This document shows, in pieces, positions 2,105-8,377 of a stretch of 8,377 nt of DNA. Source of the stretch: Actinomycetes bacterium. Lineage in GTDB: Bacteria; Actinomycetota; Acidimicrobiia; Acidimicrobiales; Palsa-688. Every line of letters begins with the position of its first letter. Position 1 is the first letter of the stretch. Under the pieces are notes generated by a model that worked only from the letters and a program-made list of their open reading frames with translations, did not search any database and had not been told where the DNA came from. Both the position numbers and the translations under genes were made by a program. Where the stretch lies: assembly GCA_021808425.1 (NCBI GenBank), contig JAKBBS010000145.1, positions 1-8,377 of the forward strand, given 5' to 3'.

Positions 2105-2128
2105 GTTATACCGGTTATACTCAGAAGG
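2105..2128 (+). promoter_or_regulatory. mazE promoter with tandem GTTATAC repeats; leaderless start
   Basis: TATACT at 2116-2121 is a good -10 element lying exactly 7 nt before the GTG at 2129, so transcription probably starts on the initiation codon. GTTATAC occurs twice, at 2105-2111 and 2114-2120, nine bases apart, the second copy overlapping the -10. ACCGGT between them is palindromic. Ribbon-helix-helix antitoxins commonly bind tandem short repeats at their own promoter, so this is a plausible autoregulatory operator. The -35 region (TTAGCC at 2093-2098) is weak. Confidence 0.5.
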
Positions 2129-2374
2129 GTGAAGACAGCCGTATCCCTGCCGAACGAACTCTACGAGCGTGCCGAGCAGGCGGCCGCACAGCTTGGCGTG
2201 AACCGGTCCCAGCTCTACGCGCGAGCCTTGACCAAATACCTCCAAGACGTCGGACCAGACCCGGTTACGGACCGACTGAACGAGCACGCCGACGAGCACG
2301 CCAAGGACACGACGACCCCCGGATCGTCCGCGGCAGCTCGCTTCCTGATCGACTCCGGGGGCTGGACGTGGTAG
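2129..2374 (+). CDS. mazE: MazE-type antitoxin, ribbon-helix-helix
   Basis: An 81-residue antitoxin of a type II toxin-antitoxin pair. Residues 1-8 (MKTAVSLP) form the DNA-binding beta strand, and 9-41 (NELYERAEQAAAQLGVNRSQ, then LYARALTKYL) the two helices of a ribbon-helix-helix domain, as in actinobacterial MazE proteins. Residues about 45-81 are an acidic, probably disordered tail (NEHADEHAKD) ending in FLIDSGGWTW, the part expected to wrap around and block the toxin. The stop (TAG 2372-2374) lies inside the start of mazF, giving a 7-base overlap that enforces co-translation. The start is GTG 2129; GA-rich bases directly before it are too close for a normal ribosome site, which fits a leaderless transcript. 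It should neutralise MazF and repress the operon through the upstream repeats. Confidence 0.88.
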   Translation: MKTAVSLPNELYERAEQAAAQLGVNRSQLYARALTKYLQDVGPDPVTDRLNEHADEHAKDTTTPGSSAAARFLIDSGGWTW

Positions 2375-2716: not shown

Positions 2717-3395
2717 CCTCGAAGGTCTCCGTCTCATAGAGAGTAACGGGCGTGATTCCGAGCTGGTCGCGCTGATCAACATCCCACGCTATCGACAAAA
2801 GCGGGTTGCGGCCCTTCAGGTAGGACTGAAGCGCCCTCTCCGGGTAGCCGAGACGCCCCATGAAACTAGACGGGTTCGCACCGCGGCTTTCGATGAACTT
2901 CTCGATATGATCCCACATCCTCTGCGAGCCGCCGCTCCAGCGCCTAAACGTGAACACCTGCAGGTCCACATCACCCACAGGATCGATCTGTGGATCTGCG
3001 AAGCTGCCGTACAGTTCTACCTTGGCCACACCACTGAGCCACCCGCTGCCCCGCTGGTTGACCAGGGCCACCCGTTCCAAGAAGCCATCGAGAGTCGCCT
3101 GTGCCTTGTGACGTGAGACGGGTTGGATGAACTTCGCAATAGCCAGCGCGTTGCCCCTGTAGGTCGTCTGCCACAAAATTTCGTCCGAGGTCCTTTCAGG
3201 CGTCTCGATCCTTTCGATCAACCCTTCACCTTCGAGTATGGCGGCCACTTGCTCCATCGGCTCGTGAAACAACACACCGAGCACGCGTGTAGGAACGCCA
3301 TTCTGGCGATCGCATCGGCTCCGCAACTCTCTCATGTAGCCGCGCAGTTCCTTCGCCTGGTACCCCGCGACCATATCGGTCGAGACGAATCTCAT
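2706..3395 (-). CDS. Winged-helix plus MNT-type nucleotidyltransferase protein
   Basis: A 229-residue protein. The C-terminal half holds the polymerase-beta-type nucleotidyltransferase signature: VELYGS (126-131), then exactly ten residues to DVD (142-144), i.e. the GSx10DxD pattern of minimal nucleotidyltransferases; D205 or D207 (SIAWDVD) may be the third metal-binding carboxylate. Residues about 38-90 (LGVLFHEPMEQVAAILEGEG, then LIERIE and a TTYRGNALA wing) look like a winged helix. Such enzymes transfer a nucleotide or nucleotides to protein, RNA or small-molecule targets; MNT proteins often act as antitoxins of HEPN toxins, but no HEPN gene is nearby. The ATG at 3395 has a strong GGGAGGGGAAGG upstream. 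The gene is convergent with mazF and divergent from the lipoprotein gene. Substrate unknown. Confidence 0.82.
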   Translation of the reverse strand: MRFVSTDMVAGYQAKELRGYMRELRSRCDRQNGVPTRVLGVLFHEPMEQVAAILEGEGLIERIETPERTSDEILWQTTYRGNALAIAKFIQPVSRHKAQATLDGFLERVALVNQRGSGWLSGVAKVELYGSFADPQIDPVGDVDLQVFTFRRWSGGSQRMWDHIEKFIESRGANPSSFMGRLGYPERALQSYLKGRNPLLSIAWDVDQRDQLGITPVTLYETETFEDLS

Positions 3396-3549
3396 CTACG
3401 TTGGCCTTCCCCTCCCGTTATCGACATGCTTGCGCTCCAGCCAGCCAGATCATCGAAACCCCCGCCAACGCCATCGACCACAACGCGCCCGGTATCTAGT
3501 ACGGTCCAGCTTCTCATCAAAGCTTCGAAACTCAAGGGGGAGGCGCCCC

Positions 3550-4134
3550 GTGACGCACCGCAGATCCACGAGGGCCTCCTTCGGAATCGTCGTCGCAGCG
3601 ATATCGGGACTCGTCGGCGGATGCACATCGTCGGGCGTGCACAGTAGCGCAGTAGTACAAGTCAAGCCCGCCTCTTCGGCACACAGCATGACTGCGCTAC
3701 CGGTCGCGACTTACCTACCGGCGGGCTACGCCAAACCAAATTCGATCGCGTCGGATCCAAGCGCACCGGGAGTCTGGTTTACCGCTGCTCTACAAGGCGA
3801 AGTCGACCTGTTCCACGTTGTCTCCCCCGGGCTGATCTCTCAGACGATCGTGCTCTCACACACACAGGTTGCAGCAGCCTCGTCTGTCACATCACAGATC
3901 GCCGTTACCCCGTCGGGTCAAGTATGGCTGAGCCTAGGGCTCACCCTTTACCACTTCGACCCGTCGACTGGTTCAATCGACACGATTTCCCTCCCCGCGA
4001 TCCTCGACAACAACACAGCGCAGAGCTTCCTCCCAGCCGGTCTGAAGGGATTCCACTTCATTAGGACTCGTCATCGACGGTGTTGTGGTCGACGGCGTCG
4101 TGACTGGTGTTGTGGTCGGACTAGCCGCCGTTGA
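3550..4134 (+). CDS. Lipoprotein with beta-propeller beginning, apparently 3'-truncated
   Basis: The start is GTG 3550, preceded by AAGGGGGA at 8-9 bases. Residues 1-24 form a lipoprotein signal peptide: basic THRRSTR, hydrophobic FGIVVAAISGLV, then the lipobox VGG before Cys25, so the mature protein would be lipid-anchored outside the membrane. Residues about 50-165 look like the first blades of a streptogramin-lyase (Vgb)/NHL-like beta-propeller: SIASDPSAPGVWFTAALQGE, then SQIAVTPSGQVWLSLGL and LYHFDPSTGSIDTISLP. A propeller needs several more blades, yet from about residue 171 (base 4062) the frame turns into Arg/Cys-rich sequence (RTRHRRCCGRRRRDWCCGR), the antisense of a Thr/Pro linker encoded on the other strand. 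The gene therefore appears cut near 4060 and fused to foreign DNA. A propeller lyase or binding protein is inferred; the product is probably non-functional. Confidence 0.72.
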   Translation: MTHRRSTRASFGIVVAAISGLVGGCTSSGVHSSAVVQVKPASSAHSMTALPVATYLPAGYAKPNSIASDPSAPGVWFTAALQGEVDLFHVVSPGLISQTIVLSHTQVAAASSVTSQIAVTPSGQVWLSLGLTLYHFDPSTGSIDTISLPAILDNNTAQSFLPAGLKGFHFIRTRHRRCCGRRRRDWCCGRTSRR

Positions 4135-4403
4135 GGTAGATAGTAGCGTGGTCAGCGTAGTGCGGGTAGACCCCGTCGAAAACGGCTGAACCGTTGCAGT
4201 CCCGGAACTGACACGCACCTCCTGAGAGGCCTGGTCTGCCCAATCGTGAGAGATAGTGCGACAGCGAGAACCATGGCAGCGACGGCACCTCCAGCCAGAC
4301 CGAGGCGACCAAAACGGCGCCGATTCGAGGGTCGTCGGACTTCATCCAGTCGCTCCACAGCCCGGGATCGTTCGGACGGGTTTGGATTGTCATCAAGTAG
4401 CAT
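3973..4403 (-). pseudogene. Membrane-anchored Thr/Pro-rich protein, frameshifted and 3'-truncated
   Basis: ATG 4403 has AGGAAGG eight bases upstream and opens a typical actinobacterial anchored protein: a charged cytoplasmic segment (NPSERSRAVERLDEVRRPSN, RRRFGR), then one transmembrane helix (LGLAGGAVAAMVLAVALSL). Soon afterwards this frame becomes Arg-rich and stops at 4152. The -1 frame instead continues plausibly from about 4240: ASQEVRVSSGTATVQPFSTG, then an exported-protein linker (TTTPVTTPSTTTPSMTSP) with a 9-residue, 27-base repeat. A frameshift around 4215-4245 therefore seems likely. Past about 4062 the frame is antisense to the lipoprotein gene, so the outer domain is lost. A caution: a third frame of 4121-4396 has more G/C-ending codons, so the choice of frame is not certain. 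Function unknown; perhaps a surface or regulatory anti-sigma-like protein. Confidence 0.45.
4079..4118. repeat. Two 13-bp direct repeats in the Thr/Pro linker
   Basis: GGTGTTGTGGTCG occurs at 4079-4091 and again at 4106-4118, 27 bases apart. On the - strand this equals a 9-residue protein repeat, so it reflects the repeated Thr/Pro linker rather than a regulatory array. Confidence 0.7.
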
Positions 4404-4564
4404 TGGTCGGCCTTCCTGCGCTCCGCCTCGGACGGAGAGTCACCAATAACGAAATGCTCGGCGCGCTGGAGCCCGAGCGCGGATTGTGCCGTCTGAACGG
4501 CGCTGGCACAAAACTCTTTAATGCCAAGAGTCGTTTGCCAAAAGGTGGGAAAACACGCTTCAAA

Positions 4565-4601
4565 TGGTCAGGCGTGTCGCGACTCCCGAGACTCCTGACC
4601 A
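4565..4601 (-). terminator. Hairpin downstream of the ABM gene
   Basis: TGGTCAGG (4565-4572) and CCTGACCA (4594-4601) form a perfect 8-bp inverted repeat around a 21-base loop. It lies 23 bases beyond the stop of the - strand ABM gene, where a terminator is expected. No T-run follows immediately, and an operator or recombination site is possible. The rest of 4404-4623 holds no supportable gene. Confidence 0.4.
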
Positions 4602-4623
4602 ATTCGCACACTAACGCCAGCCG

Positions 4624-4920
4624 TCACGCGGCCGACACCGGTTCGAAGTGCTCCACGACTGGAAACGGCTCGTAGAAGTGGTGGAGAAGCCGACGCCACT
4701 CCTCGTACTGCGGCGACCCTCGGAATCCCACCATATGAGCATCGACGTTTGACCATTCGACAAGTAGAAGGTAGGTGTCGGGACGTTCCAGGCAACGGGA
4801 CAGCGAAAGTCCCATGAATCCGGGCATACCCGCAATAATCGCCTTTGCCTCAGCGAACGCCGCCTCGAAACGGGACTCTTCACCGCTCCTGACAGGCAGC
4901 AACGCGTGCTCAATAATCAT
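4624..4920 (-). CDS. ABM-domain (antibiotic biosynthesis monooxygenase-like) protein
   Basis: A 98-residue protein forming a single ABM domain, a ferredoxin-like fold that dimerises. Order of elements: strand MIIEHALLPV (1-10), the helix RFEAAFAEAKAIIAGMPGFM (17-36) with the typical MPGF turn, strand LSLSRCLERPDTYLLLVEW (38-56), then the W-SNVDAHMVGFRGSPQYEEW helix (56-75) and the C-terminal HHFYEPFPVVEHFEPV strand. The R-G-SP-Y-E/W and H-F segments are characteristic of small ABM proteins of about 95-105 residues. Members include cofactor-free monooxygenases, haem-degrading enzymes and proteins of unknown role, so substrate cannot be given. The start is ATG 4920; longer upstream frames do not fit the family. 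It has no clear ribosome site, but CATAAT sits 6 nt before the ATG. Confidence 0.88.
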   Translation of the reverse strand: MIIEHALLPVRSGEESRFEAAFAEAKAIIAGMPGFMGLSLSRCLERPDTYLLLVEWSNVDAHMVGFRGSPQYEEWRRLLHHFYEPFPVVEHFEPVSAA

Positions 4921-4926
4921 CGCAAC

Positions 4927-4932
4927 ATTATG
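4927..4932 (-). promoter_or_regulatory. Putative -10 of the ABM gene, leaderless start
   Basis: On the - strand CATAAT (reverse of 4927-4932) ends 6 nt before the ATG at 4920, and no Shine-Dalgarno-like sequence lies between, so transcription may begin at the start codon. No good -35 is visible. Confidence 0.35.
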
Positions 4933-4984
4933 CTGCAAACGACAGCCTCCAGAATGTGCACGAACTTGCCGCGCTCGACACGGA

Positions 4985-5010
4985 CACGCGTGCGCGGAAC
5001 CGAAGTTCGG
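4985..5010. promoter_or_regulatory. Two perfect palindromes upstream of the ABM gene
   Basis: CACGCGTG (4985-4992) is an 8-bp palindrome and CCGAAGTTCGG (5000-5010) a perfect 5-1-5 palindrome. Both lie in the 104-bp gap between the mazF-like stop and the ABM start, 65-90 bases upstream of the ABM gene. They could be regulator sites or a small hairpin ending the toxin transcript; nothing decides between these. Confidence 0.25.
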
Positions 5011-5024
5011 CCGTCGAAGACCTC

Positions 5025-5369
5025 TCAGGAAGGTAAGTCGAGCATAACGGCGATCGTCTCGCGGATCTGGGCGAGCGTCGCAGCCCCCACATTGCCGCGA
5101 ACCGTAATGATCCGGCCGGTCGACGCCACCCGAAGGTGCTGACACTGCGCTGCTGAGCTACTCGCGAGACCGTTGTGATCGTCGGGATCGATCCGGATCT
5201 CTGAGTGGAAATCCCGAAGCGTCGACGTCAGCGGAACCACATAGACCACAGAGGGCTCGGCGGTGAGAATCCGCTGGGCAGACACGACCACGGCGGGATG
5301 ACGAAACCTCGCCTCGTGACCATGAGGTAGTCCGAGGTCGAGATCGACGGTGTCACCCGAGTTCAGCAT
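5025..5369 (-). CDS. Second MazF/PemK-type toxin
   Basis: A 114-residue mRNA-interferase-type toxin. The family order is visible: SGDTVDLDLGLPHGHEARFR (4-23), then HPAVVVSAQR (24-33), where the Arg before the PAVVV strand is the catalytic candidate (R23), VVYVVPLTST (41-50) with the conserved Thr, HSEIRI (55-60), SSAAQCQHLRVASTGRI (70-87) and a C-terminal helix ending in MLDLPS. Nothing is missing and no internal stop occurs, so the toxin looks intact although it is quite different from the toxin at 2368-2703. ATG 5369 lies inside the end of the antitoxin frame (17-base overlap), the standard antitoxin-toxin order. That antitoxin frame has an in-frame TAG, so how this toxin is expressed or held in check is unclear. 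Cleavage site unknown. Confidence 0.85.
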   Translation of the reverse strand: MLNSGDTVDLDLGLPHGHEARFRHPAVVVSAQRILTAEPSVVYVVPLTSTLRDFHSEIRIDPDDHNGLASSSAAQCQHLRVASTGRIITVRGNVGAATLAQIRETIAVMLDLPS

Positions 5370-5547
5370 CGAGCCAGGAGGACGCGGCGGCTAACAGCGG
5401 TTGAGTGAGCTGCTTCCCCATTCGGTCTTGGCGTAGAGCACGAACAGCGGCAACGACTGCGCCTCCGACGGTCGTCCCTAGATCCTCCGCTAGCTACTTC
5501 AATTCTTGGTGAGTCTCACCGTCGATCCGCACACTCGTCGATTGCAT
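5353..5547 (-). pseudogene. MazE-like antitoxin interrupted by an amber codon
   Basis: From ATG 5547 the frame reads MQSTSVRIDGETHQELK, a ribbon-helix-helix beginning (strand then first helix), then TAG at 5496-5494, then continues in the same frame LAEDLGTTVGGAVVAAVRAL, RQDRMGKQLTQPLLAAASSW and LDAELG to TGA at 5353-5355. The two parts join into a typical 64-residue RHH antitoxin that overlaps the toxin start by 17 bases. Only the one codon is wrong, consistent with a single-base change such as CAG or AAG to TAG. A restart just after the stop is not obvious (the next in-frame ATG is codon 43, which would omit the DNA-binding domain but keep part of the toxin-binding tail). TAG ends other intact-looking genes here, so it is not obviously reassigned. 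A sequencing error or a suppressor remain possible. Confidence 0.82.
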
Positions 5548-5554
5548 GCAAATC

Positions 5555-5560
5555 AGCATA
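5555..5560 (-). promoter_or_regulatory. Putative -10 of the second toxin-antitoxin pair, leaderless start
   Basis: On the - strand TATGCT (reverse of 5555-5560) ends 7 nt before ATG 5547, the same spacing as at the first pair. There is no ribosome site, so a leaderless transcript is likely. TTGGAC lies 14 bases further upstream, a rather short spacing for a -35. The rest of 5561-5750 holds no supportable gene. Confidence 0.4.
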
Positions 5561-5750
5561 CACGGGCCGGCGATGTCCAACGCAGCGTCGACCCCTTGGG
5601 TTGCGATGGCTCGGACCCACGACGACGGCGAGGACCGACGAAAGCAGCGACGGCCAGATCCCAGCGGTAGAAGTCGGCGTAGCTGTCGAGCCGACCGAAA
5701 GCACAGTAGGCAGGCCATCTGGAGTCTGAGCCGGTCCCGACGGGGCGACC

Positions 5751-7058
5751 CTAGCAAGATGTCACGGACGGCTGAGCGGAGCCATAGGTTACCGTCAGCG
5801 AGTTGTCGATTTCTGCGACGAGCTGTCGCAATTCCTGGTACGAGCCCACAGCGCCTTTAACCGCGAGGAGGTACCCGGTCGCACCGCCCTCGCGAGCGTC
5901 CAGTCGGTCGCCTTGTCGCTTGTTTTGGGCGATGCTCTCGACTCCAGGTAAGGCGCGCAAACGATCTATGCCAGCGATCTCATCGAGATCCGTCGCACTG
6001 GCTGGAGAGGGGATCCAGCGAGCGAATGAGATGAGTGGGCTGACAATAGCGGGGGGCGGCTCAACCTCGAGACCGAGGGCCAGCCGAAACGCCAACGCCG
6101 CCAAAGGGGGCCCACCGAGTCGTGCTATGAGGAAAGCGATAAGTCCACCGACTCGAGGATTGATCTCGATGAGTCTCGGACCCGAGGGTGTCAGTTTGAT
6201 TTCCGTATGCACTGCGCCGTGGCTAAGGCACAGCGAGCTAATGGCCGCGGTGGCTAGCGTTAGCACAGCCCTACGGTCTTCCAATGAGCAGTCACTTGGA
6301 AAGAAGCTTCCAGTTTCGCGGAAGGGCGGAGCAAATGAGAATCGCCCAGTAACGCCGAAATGATGGGCGACGCCATTCAAGAGGACGCTCTCAACGGAGA
6401 CAATGTCGGCACCGACCTTCGATGCCGGCTCGGGTGACCCCTCAAGGAACTCTTCCAAGATGAAGTTCTCCTTGTCGCACAGCTCCAAAGTTTTCCGAAG
6501 ATCTGCGTCGTCACGAACGAAGAACGTGTCACGACTACCCGAGCCATGACAGGGCTTCAGAACGGCCGGATACGCCAGGGGCAATGGACGATCGGTGGCT
6601 TTCGGGAAGTCGGAGGGTGTCAGTTTCATGAATCCGGGTACCGGAATACCAGCCTTCTGCAACGCTGAGCGCTGCTCGTATTTGTCACTCGACCGGCGAG
6701 CAGCGTCGACGCTATTGAAGGGCAAGCCGAACGAAGCGGCCACTGTGGCTGCCAACACCTGGGGTGAATCCGTGAAGGCGACTACTCCCTGCAGTTCATA
6801 CGGCCGCAGAAGGTCCAGCACCTCCTTTTCGGTGTTCCCCGTTATATCGACAAGCGCTCCGAGGCGCGCCATGATCCTGTCCGGAAACGTCATCTCCGCC
6901 TTAGACCTAGACCAACCAACAACCCAAACAATGCGACAGAGGCCACGGGCCGCGTCCGCGAGTTCGAGCGGCGAGGCCGATGCCTGCTCCCAAAAGACCG
7001 CCACCCGCGGAAGCTCGGCTTGACCCGGTTCTTTTACGTCATCGCCAAGCGACCTCAC
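5751..7058 (-). CDS. ATP-grasp ligase (carboxylate-amine/thiol ligase superfamily)
   Basis: A 435-residue protein with the full ATP-grasp layout. Residues about 17-120 are the pre-ATP-grasp Rossmann-like domain (PRVAVFWEQ, GVVAFTDS). The lead-in SSDKYEQRSALQKAGIPVPG (123-142) precedes the ATP-grasp domain: YPAVLKPCHGSGSRDTFFV (163-181) with Lys168 and the Gly-rich loop, the hinge FILEEFLEG (199-207), SVESVLLNGVAHHFGVTGRF (221-240), and the metal site HTEIKLTP (284-291) with RLIEINPRVGG (295-305), where E298 and N300 bind magnesium. These enzymes activate a carboxylate as acyl-phosphate and join it to an amine; relatives include amino acid ligases and dipeptide/natural-product enzymes. The substrate is not readable. 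GTG 7058 is the longest start; GTG 7004 (V19), just before AVFWEQ, is a shorter alternative. TAAACT lies 8 nt before GTG 7058. Confidence 0.88.
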   Translation of the reverse strand: MRSLGDDVKEPGQAELPRVAVFWEQASASPLELADAARGLCRIVWVVGWSRSKAEMTFPDRIMARLGALVDITGNTEKEVLDLLRPYELQGVVAFTDSPQVLAATVAASFGLPFNSVDAARRSSDKYEQRSALQKAGIPVPGFMKLTPSDFPKATDRPLPLAYPAVLKPCHGSGSRDTFFVRDDADLRKTLELCDKENFILEEFLEGSPEPASKVGADIVSVESVLLNGVAHHFGVTGRFSFAPPFRETGSFFPSDCSLEDRRAVLTLATAAISSLCLSHGAVHTEIKLTPSGPRLIEINPRVGGLIAFLIARLGGPPLAALAFRLALGLEVEPPPAIVSPLISFARWIPSPASATDLDEIAGIDRLRALPGVESIAQNKRQGDRLDAREGGATGYLLAVKGAVGSYQELRQLVAEIDNSLTVTYGSAQPSVTSC

Positions 7059-7281
7059 GCTCCGTGAGTTTACTGGGACTCACCAGAGGTCCCCATCCAA
7101 CCGTGGCAATATTCTTGTTTCGCCAAGTCAGTGAGCGTCGCGTTCGAGTGGGGTCTCATCGACGCCAACCTAAGCGCGCAACGCTGAACCGCCCACCACG
7201 GGATCATCTCCCGGCCGTCGCTGCCGATTGAGCGACTGAACTCGTCGCGCTCTGCCTACGACGCCCAGCAATCCAGCGCGA

Positions 7282-7659
7282 TCACAGTCGGATGCCGCTT
7301 GGTGTCGACTCGCTGACGATTGTCGCGAGACTGTCCATTGCTTCAGCGACTAACGCGGCCACTTTGTCCAAGGAGGAGCTCCGAGCGATGCTCGCTGCGG
7401 CTACTTCTGTCCGACTCTGTGTGCTGCCTCCAGAGCGGAAGAACCGGCGCCTCACTCGGCCGGCTACCACCACAGACTCGCCGACATCGAGATCCTCGCC
7501 CCAGGCCGGTGCACCGAGCCATGAGACGGGTATCGTCTCGGCCGGTCCGTCGGGTCTGCGGACCGTGACCTCGAGCGCCAACAGTCTCGTGCCTGAGGGC
7601 AATTCGACCAGTTGGGAAGGCCGTGCGAGCACGCCTTTCACGACTACTACGTTCAGCAT
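7282..7659 (-). CDS. Single-stranded DNA-binding (SSB/PriB-like OB-fold) protein
   Basis: A 125-residue protein whose first 80 residues form an OB-fold like bacterial SSB: MLNVVVVKGVLARPSQLVEL (1-20), PSGTRLLALEVTVRR (21-35), ETIPVSWLGAPAW (41-53, matching the F-V--W---A- strand), GESVVVAGRVRRRFFRSGG (60-78) and TEVAAASI (84-91). The C-terminal part is short and lacks the acidic DDDIPF-type tip of the main replicative SSB, so it is more likely an accessory paralogue such as those found in actinobacteria. It would bind single-stranded DNA in replication, repair or uptake. The start at ATG 7659 is well supported by GGAGGT eight bases upstream. Its neighbours are the TPR gene on the same strand 377 bases upstream and the ATP-grasp gene downstream, 223 bases away. 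Confidence 0.8.
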   Translation of the reverse strand: MLNVVVVKGVLARPSQLVELPSGTRLLALEVTVRRPDGPAETIPVSWLGAPAWGEDLDVGESVVVAGRVRRRFFRSGGSTQSRTEVAAASIARSSSLDKVAALVAEAMDSLATIVSESTPSGIRL

Positions 7660-8036
7660 TTTCCCACACCTCCGAGTATCGAGCCTCGGCCGACACCGTC
7701 CCCGCGGCTAAGGCGCCTGTGGGGGGAATGCGGTCGCGGCTACACTTTGTAACCTGAAGTAGGTCGACGTCCTGCGTCGGCGAGAGGCGGCTCACGTTCC
7801 GTCGAGTGCCTGGCGAATACCATAACGAGTAGGTGTGACCATGAAGGAGTCGGAGCTGGCGGCATCGACGTCGCCCCGAGATTGAACGAGCTGCCTCGGT
7901 GCCACTGGTACCAGTCGGACGACATCGGCTGCACTCGCGACAACCTCAAGGAACTGATGGACCGAGCGGAGGGCGGCGGGATCGAGGTGCTGGCCCCTCA
8001 CACCAATATTGCTGAAGGAATCACGGCATGGCCGGC
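7660..8036. other. 377-bp region without an assignable gene
   Basis: Between the SSB-like and TPR genes two overlapping short frames look mildly coding. The + frame from TTG 7882 gives LPRCHWYQSDDIGCTRDNLK and ELMDRAEGGGIEVLAPHTNI; the - frame from GTG 8001 to 7792 gives LDPAALRSVHQFLEVVASAA and ends RYGIRQALDGT. Neither has a ribosome site or a family I recognise, and they overlap on opposite strands, so at most one is real. CGCGGCTA occurs twice (7703-7710 and 7735-7742), 32 bases apart, in the likely upstream region of the SSB-like gene. Confidence 0.3.
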
Positions 8037-8377
8037 TCAGCGCAGAGCGGTCAGACGTCCACGCACGTCGAAAGAGTCGGGGTCGACCGACGCGACCCGG
8101 TTAAAGAGGTCTCTGGCGCGCGGCAAGTCCCCTGCCCGCTCGTAAAGGTCGGCTAGCGCATACCACTGTCGTAGATGCCTCTCCGAGGGCTGCGCGACCT
8201 TGCGGGACGCCTTTTCGAGCATCAGGATCGCTCCTGCCAGGTCACCGCAATCAGCCTTGACCTCTGCAGCGACTATGCGTCCTTCAGCGACGACGTCGCC
8301 GCTCGGGGAGGCCTCACGCAATTCAGCCCAAAGCTGTTCGGCGTCTTCGTAGCGACGAAGAGCGCGGTAGCAGTCGG
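8037..8377 (-). CDS. Tetratricopeptide-repeat protein, C-terminal part
   Basis: The frame runs off the window edge on the - strand, so only the last 113 residues are seen: CYRALRRYEDAEQLWAELRE at the start and RGRLTALR at the end. It contains TPR helices: CGDLAGAILMLEKASR, then RHLRQWYALADLYERAGDLP and RARDLFNRVASVDPDSFDV, where the W-L---Y-RAGDLPRAR--F--V---DP pattern is characteristic. No start codon is in the window; the TTG at 8321 is only an internal possibility. TPR proteins form protein-binding scaffolds, and this one is a soluble, Arg-rich actinobacterial type, commonly a housekeeping gene of unknown role. Its stop TGA lies at 8037-8039 and no coupled gene follows. Partial, but the domain call is solid. 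Confidence 0.82.
   Translation of the reverse strand, partial: DCYRALRRYEDAEQLWAELREASPSGDVVAEGRIVAAEVKADCGDLAGAILMLEKASRKVAQPSERHLRQWYALADLYERAGDLPRARDLFNRVASVDPDSFDVRGRLTALR

Follow-up and report, generated by a model that had tools for sequence, protein, structure and literature searches.

The ccdO157 locus of E. coli, reportedly the subject of Mine et al. in 2009, is a decaying chromosomal toxin-antitoxin (TA) module. Chromosomal TA systems are described in PMC7167474 as decaying through deletions and nonsense mutations, and orphan toxins are common in MAGs, with 4386 of them reported from a single marine set (PMC12654330). In Mycobacterium tuberculosis, the organism of the toxin MazF-mt1, TA transcripts are commonly leaderless: according to PMC3898074, this holds for 32 of the 37 TA pairs for which a primary start was mapped, and 73% of primary starts have a TANNNT box centred 7-12 bp ahead of them.

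The module analyzed here lies in a window of 8,377 nucleotides (the whole stretch of DNA that was examined) from an uncultured actinobacterium. Its toxin resembles MazF-mt1 (MazF9; PDB 5hjz and 6kyt), the best match among solved structures (profile E 5.3e-15; TM about 0.7 for the predicted fold), and its transcript is likewise predicted to be leaderless. As in decaying chromosomal modules such as ccdO157, loss of TA function through deletions and nonsense mutations is the probable process. Unlike the ccdO157 type of decay, however, here the antitoxin is interrupted whereas the toxin frame is open, and the closest intact antitoxin is a protein entry, P0121. The toxin frame lacks a working neighbour antitoxin, as do the orphan toxins of PMC12654330, but, in contrast to these, what is left of its cognate antitoxin can be fully recognized. 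In the literature, titles and beginnings of abstracts among the matches listed contained no description of this family or of the TAG allele. The locus is probably a type II MazEF-like module that lost its antitoxin, probably recently, by a nonsense mutation and is now decaying, with the toxin probably silenced.

Organization of the locus

Translation of the minus strand reproduced both the coordinates and the description in the original prediction, namely, a 64-codon antitoxin frame with a TAG at codon 18 and a 17-nt overlap with the toxin, and this TAG (5494-5496) is the sole premature stop in the frame. The features of the locus are as follows.

5353..5547, minus strand: antitoxin frame of 64 codons plus TGA (translation), homologous to the other 19 scan loci and interrupted at codon 18
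5559, minus strand: alternative upstream ATG, four codons earlier, yielding a 68-codon antitoxin frame (translation)
5494..5496, minus strand: in-frame TAG at antitoxin codon 18 (translation), with the identical codon in a second assembly, L001
5353-5355, minus strand: natural antitoxin stop, TGA (translation)
5025..5369, minus strand: open frame of a MazF/PemK-family toxin, 114 aa (ORF list, Pfam, Foldseek)
5353..5369, minus strand: 17-nt overlap of the antitoxin and toxin frames, with predicted translational coupling; the toxin ATG lies here in 46 of the 47 other distinct loci
5419..5421, minus strand: ATG at codon 43, the sole in-frame ATG, GTG or TTG past the TAG; a restart here would yield a 22-residue tail
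5555..5560, minus strand: predicted -10 box TATGCT (TANNNT), 7 nt ahead of the 64-codon ATG; a leaderless promoter is predicted
5543..5562, minus strand: predicted operator with half-sites TGTATGC (5556-5562) and TGCATGCA (5543-5550), from column conservation in 45 loci

We discarded the ATG at 5559 as the probable start, since it falls inside the putative -10 box and is missing in several relatives. The ribbon-helix-helix character of the antitoxin is a resemblance only, as judged from sequence profiles: three intact relatives, P0121 and the antitoxins of loci L002 and L013, matched RHH_1 or RHH_4 with 13-15 bits, below the cut-offs of 20.5 and 25. A search of solved structures with the antitoxin profile gave 13 matches, with designed repeat proteins at the top, which were judged to be due to chance.

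Elsewhere in the window, the frame at 3430-4134 (plus strand) has, by eye, a lipoprotein-like start and no match in Pfam or NCBIfam. Two frames overlap on one strand at 4121-4403 (minus strand), possibly representing a frameshifted gene; one of these, 4152-4403, has a weak N-terminal match to the CU044_5270 family (20.7 bits vs 100). PADLOC gave no result for 5 proteins.

The toxin

The toxin matches the Pfam family PF02452 (PemK/MazF) with 56.9 bits, against a cut-off of 23.1, whereas the NCBIfam equivalog for the endoribonuclease MazF, NF007386, was not reached (30.3 bits vs 120). A first structure model, built from toxin alignment A1, was too poor for use (pLDDT 40); the second, from alignment A3, is modest (pLDDT 61.4), and all 21 Foldseek matches obtained with it at E up to 0.001 are MazF chains (TM 0.65-0.75). 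The rows for MazF-mt1 chains within this E-value range show 25-29% identity.

PemK/MazF toxins have a catalytic Arg and a catalytic Thr. In the window toxin, Thr48 is invariant in both alignments, and the Arg position is occupied by His24, with Arg23 adjoining. The Arg that precedes the conserved Pro in MazF-mt1 aligns with His in most of this subfamily, where the Arg is found one place earlier: residues 23-24 (5298-5303, minus strand) and the following Pro read Arg-His-Pro in most members, vs Gln-Arg-Pro in MazF-mt1.

Among the homologues, plasmid matches came from 5 Rhodococcus records (38-40% identity), and scans of viral contigs with the single sequence or with alignment A1 found no toxin relative. 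For the comparison of residues, we used the 112 relatives of length 114 from the best 120 of 1667 matches. Position 21 is G in 110 of these; at position 81, A is found in 104 and S in the other 8. Neither of the residues introduced by G21R and A81V in the window toxin is present in any of the 112. The original prediction called the toxin intact, a wording that is slightly strong in view of these two substitutions.

If these substitutions, of which G21R lies in the region of the beta1-beta2 loop, had weakened the toxin at an earlier stage, it might be made and yet harmless, permitting the loss of the antitoxin. We regard this sequence of events as unlikely. It gains some weight from the absence of both residues among the same-length toxins, from P0001, a 95% identical toxin that keeps G21 and A81, and from the lowered activity of MazF-mt3 upon removal of loop residues (PMC11394972). 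On the other hand, P0001, too, carries rare residues at conserved sites, three in all, and MazF-mt1 has a different residue at the position of G21, which shows that this site is not strictly required. Decay of the toxin itself is not apparent, which counts against the decay reading of the module. The window toxin has no excess of unusual residues, given that 54 of the 113 toxins (the window included) carry at least two rarities at conserved sites, and its median dN, 0.14 in comparisons with 12 relatives, is inside the range of the relatives themselves (0.10-0.17).

The stop codon in a second assembly and among relatives

The original prediction listed an assembly error among the possible sources of the stop. 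The same locus is present in a second assembly, L001 (MAG contig JAKCEB010000090.1), which carries the same TAG. L001 matches the window at 100% over 2707 bases (263-2969) and with 2 mismatches, at 4208 and 7987, over 4813 bases (3565-8377), both mismatches being outside the antitoxin/toxin operon; opposite 2970-3564 of the window, L001 has a 100-N gap. Because the sequences differ in places, the two are not one copied record. Given the agreement of the two assemblies on the TAG, an assembly error is unlikely, although their reads are possibly not independent. In a broader form, in which the TAG is a minority variant in the population or a consensus error, an artefact might draw on the low coverage of L001 (5.74) and on the presence of the intact P0121 in public data; with two assemblies that agree at this codon and differ elsewhere, we consider it very unlikely. 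The TAG is a real, and probably recent, nonsense allele in a module of a known kind.

A genome scan with the toxin alignment identified 20 loci, L001 included, labelled as Acidimicrobiaceae (8), Acidimicrobiia (1), Actinomycetes (8), Actinomycetota (1) and Acidobacteria/Acidobacteriota (2). Codon 18 encodes an amino acid in all 19 of the others, in an antitoxin frame that has equal length, equal overlap with the toxin and no stop; because these loci share both frame and overlap, free of stops, neither is due to chance. When 395 class genomes were searched, the antitoxin matches listed numbered 68, in 55 genomes, and a stop is found in only one of the 68, namely in G001, the MAG to which L001 belongs. 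Since no more than 15 candidates were scored for each genome in the first look, heavily damaged copies may escape this count. The inactivating stop is thus absent from the relatives (scan loci, P0121 and class genomes), as in a decaying TA module. Furthermore, a shorter antitoxin starting after the stop is not the norm, either in the 19 scan loci or in 47 distinct loci, in agreement with the original reading of the frame as a full-length antitoxin with a single stop.

The 46-residue part past the stop, searched by itself against public proteins, had 67 matches, of which 66 with at least 64 residues were used, as were the 62 with Met at the 64-residue start. The best match, P0121, is a protein of 68 aa, 98% identical over the 46 post-stop residues, that represents a cluster on 12 contigs. 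The existence of such a close intact relative makes the stop look recent. P0121 and the window differ at two places in the 64 codons, the stop and one glutamate lost in the window, and one further difference lies ahead of the ATG at 5547. The lost glutamate, which belongs to the tail past codon 43, is kept in 65 of the 66 antitoxin relatives, and its loss is as expected once selection was lifted.

After codon 18, the median dN of the antitoxin to 12 of the 19 relatives is 0.24, vs 0.04-0.13 among the relatives. We rejected this fast change as a sign of decay because the intact P0121 has it in common with the window, that is, it predates the stop.

Expression layout

In a motif-filtered set of 45 distinct loci that have the N-terminal motif and enough upstream DNA and that include the window's own copy (L021), conservation ahead of the 64-codon ATG covers positions -15 to -1 and is only weak further out. 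In this set, TANNNT is located 7 nt before the antitoxin ATG in 37 of the 45 loci and at 6-8 nt in 42, and each of the remaining spacings between 0 and 53 has it in at most 4 loci. A coordinate-based recount without the motif filter covered L002-L020 and L065-L093 (48 loci, 47 distinct, the own locus excluded), restoring L089, L091 and L093, and placed TANNNT exactly 7 nt before the ATG in 37 of the 47 distinct loci and at 6-8 nt in 44. Given the relatedness of the loci, these counts do not represent independent events. The three exceptions are L009 and L087, with no TANNNT near the ATG, and L081, with one only at 10 nt or more. This layout points to a leaderless mRNA that would start at the antitoxin AUG.

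The conserved block also contains TGTATGC and TGCATGCA, which likely form an operator, with binding predicted from this arrangement. In many of the loci L071-L121, an extra GCATGC-like half-site, absent in the window, is seen by eye about 12 nt before TGTATGC, suggestive of three half-sites spaced 12 nt upstream of the antitoxin in many loci of this range.

The toxin ATG is within the 17-nt overlap in all of the 47 other distinct loci except L093; with the antitoxin upstream and the pair conserved, this is the arrangement of a type II TA operon. In 18 of the 20 scan loci, anti-SD pairing ahead of the toxin ATG reaches at most -5.0 kcal/mol, and it is the weakest of all 20 in the window, at -1.5 kcal/mol; L013 and L016, which go against this trend, exceed the 5% tail of random stretches. 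In none of the 45 motif-filtered loci is there a TANNNT before the toxin ATG at spacings of 0-59. Together, the overlap, the weak anti-SD pairing and the lack of a TANNNT of its own suggest that translation of the toxin falls mainly to ribosomes arriving from the end of the antitoxin. This family-wide layout of leaderless type, with the 17-nt overlap, is new here.

Probable decay of the module and silencing of the toxin

Under the explanation that we favour, the operon would give rise to a leaderless mRNA that begins with the antitoxin AUG, and the toxin, which appears to lack a good ribosome-binding site, would normally be translated by ribosomes ending the antitoxin at the overlapping TGA. 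The TAG lies 124 nt before the toxin AUG. Ribosomes would now halt that far short of it, so that little toxin would be made and the loss of the antitoxin would be tolerated; the TAG would thus silence both proteins, and the toxin frame would still be open because the nonsense event was recent. Among the five options put forward in the original prediction, silencing of the toxin through lost translational coupling best fits the layout, the coupling itself being predicted from sequence. Two further damaged copies are present in the class, with toxin matches that start at residue 12 (L111) and residue 31 (L123). Both matches lack the N-terminus, and their genomes have no antitoxin among the matches listed; L123 retains a remnant of the antitoxin end.

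Another of these options, cross-protection by the mazE at 2129-2374, found no support in sequence comparisons. The neighbour mazEF (2129-2703) is a distant pair, with toxins only 25% identical, and BLASTP gave no alignment of its antitoxin with the intact relative P0121. Apart from a chance-like match of 12.6 bits, the MAG, which may be incomplete, showed no other antitoxin homologous to the broken one at E up to 1. This second mazEF also looks leaderless (2116-2131, plus strand), with a TATACT that ends 7 nt before the GTG start at 2129.

A restart is possible at the in-frame ATG of codon 43 (5421), as originally proposed, and the resulting 22-residue tail might still bind and inhibit the toxin: in PMC11394972, the last antitoxin helix alone bound MazF-mt9 with the affinity of the whole antitoxin. 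The same paper, however, reports a minimal inhibitory effect of the last helix alone on MazF-mt3; the tail encoded here is without the glutamate kept in nearly all relatives; the Met is not conserved, being present in 2 of the 20 sequences of antitoxin alignment A2 (P0121 and L008); and so short a peptide would likely be unstable. We therefore hold rescue by this tail to be highly improbable.

Read-through or suppression of the TAG, which would provide some full-length antitoxin, could be imagined from the frame past the stop, which is open and nearly identical to that of P0121. The proposal is nevertheless unsupported and exceedingly unlikely to be correct: 18 of 60 long open frames in stretches of the MAG end in TAG (by a crude filter), a near-invariant residue past the stop is changed, and none of the 35 tRNA genes in the MAG has a CUA anticodon, the latter being weak evidence because the set is incomplete, with no tRNA for Gly, Asp, Phe or Ile. 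Hardly credible, too, is a gate in which the TAG shuts off antitoxin and toxin on the leaderless coupled operon and the restart tail or rare stress-induced read-through restores a little antitoxin tail and toxin, resulting in a low-cost dormant toxin allele beside intact ones in the population.

Implications

Decay with silencing of the toxin, our preferred explanation, suggests how a host can survive when a type II module loses its antitoxin first: provided that synthesis of the toxin relies on antitoxin translation, a nonsense codon would disarm both. The locus itself is one more ordinary decaying TA pair, and the transferable point is the overlapping layout of leaderless type. With a leaderless-type promoter and a likely operator across the family, these loci present a clean case for TA expression in little-known actinobacteria.
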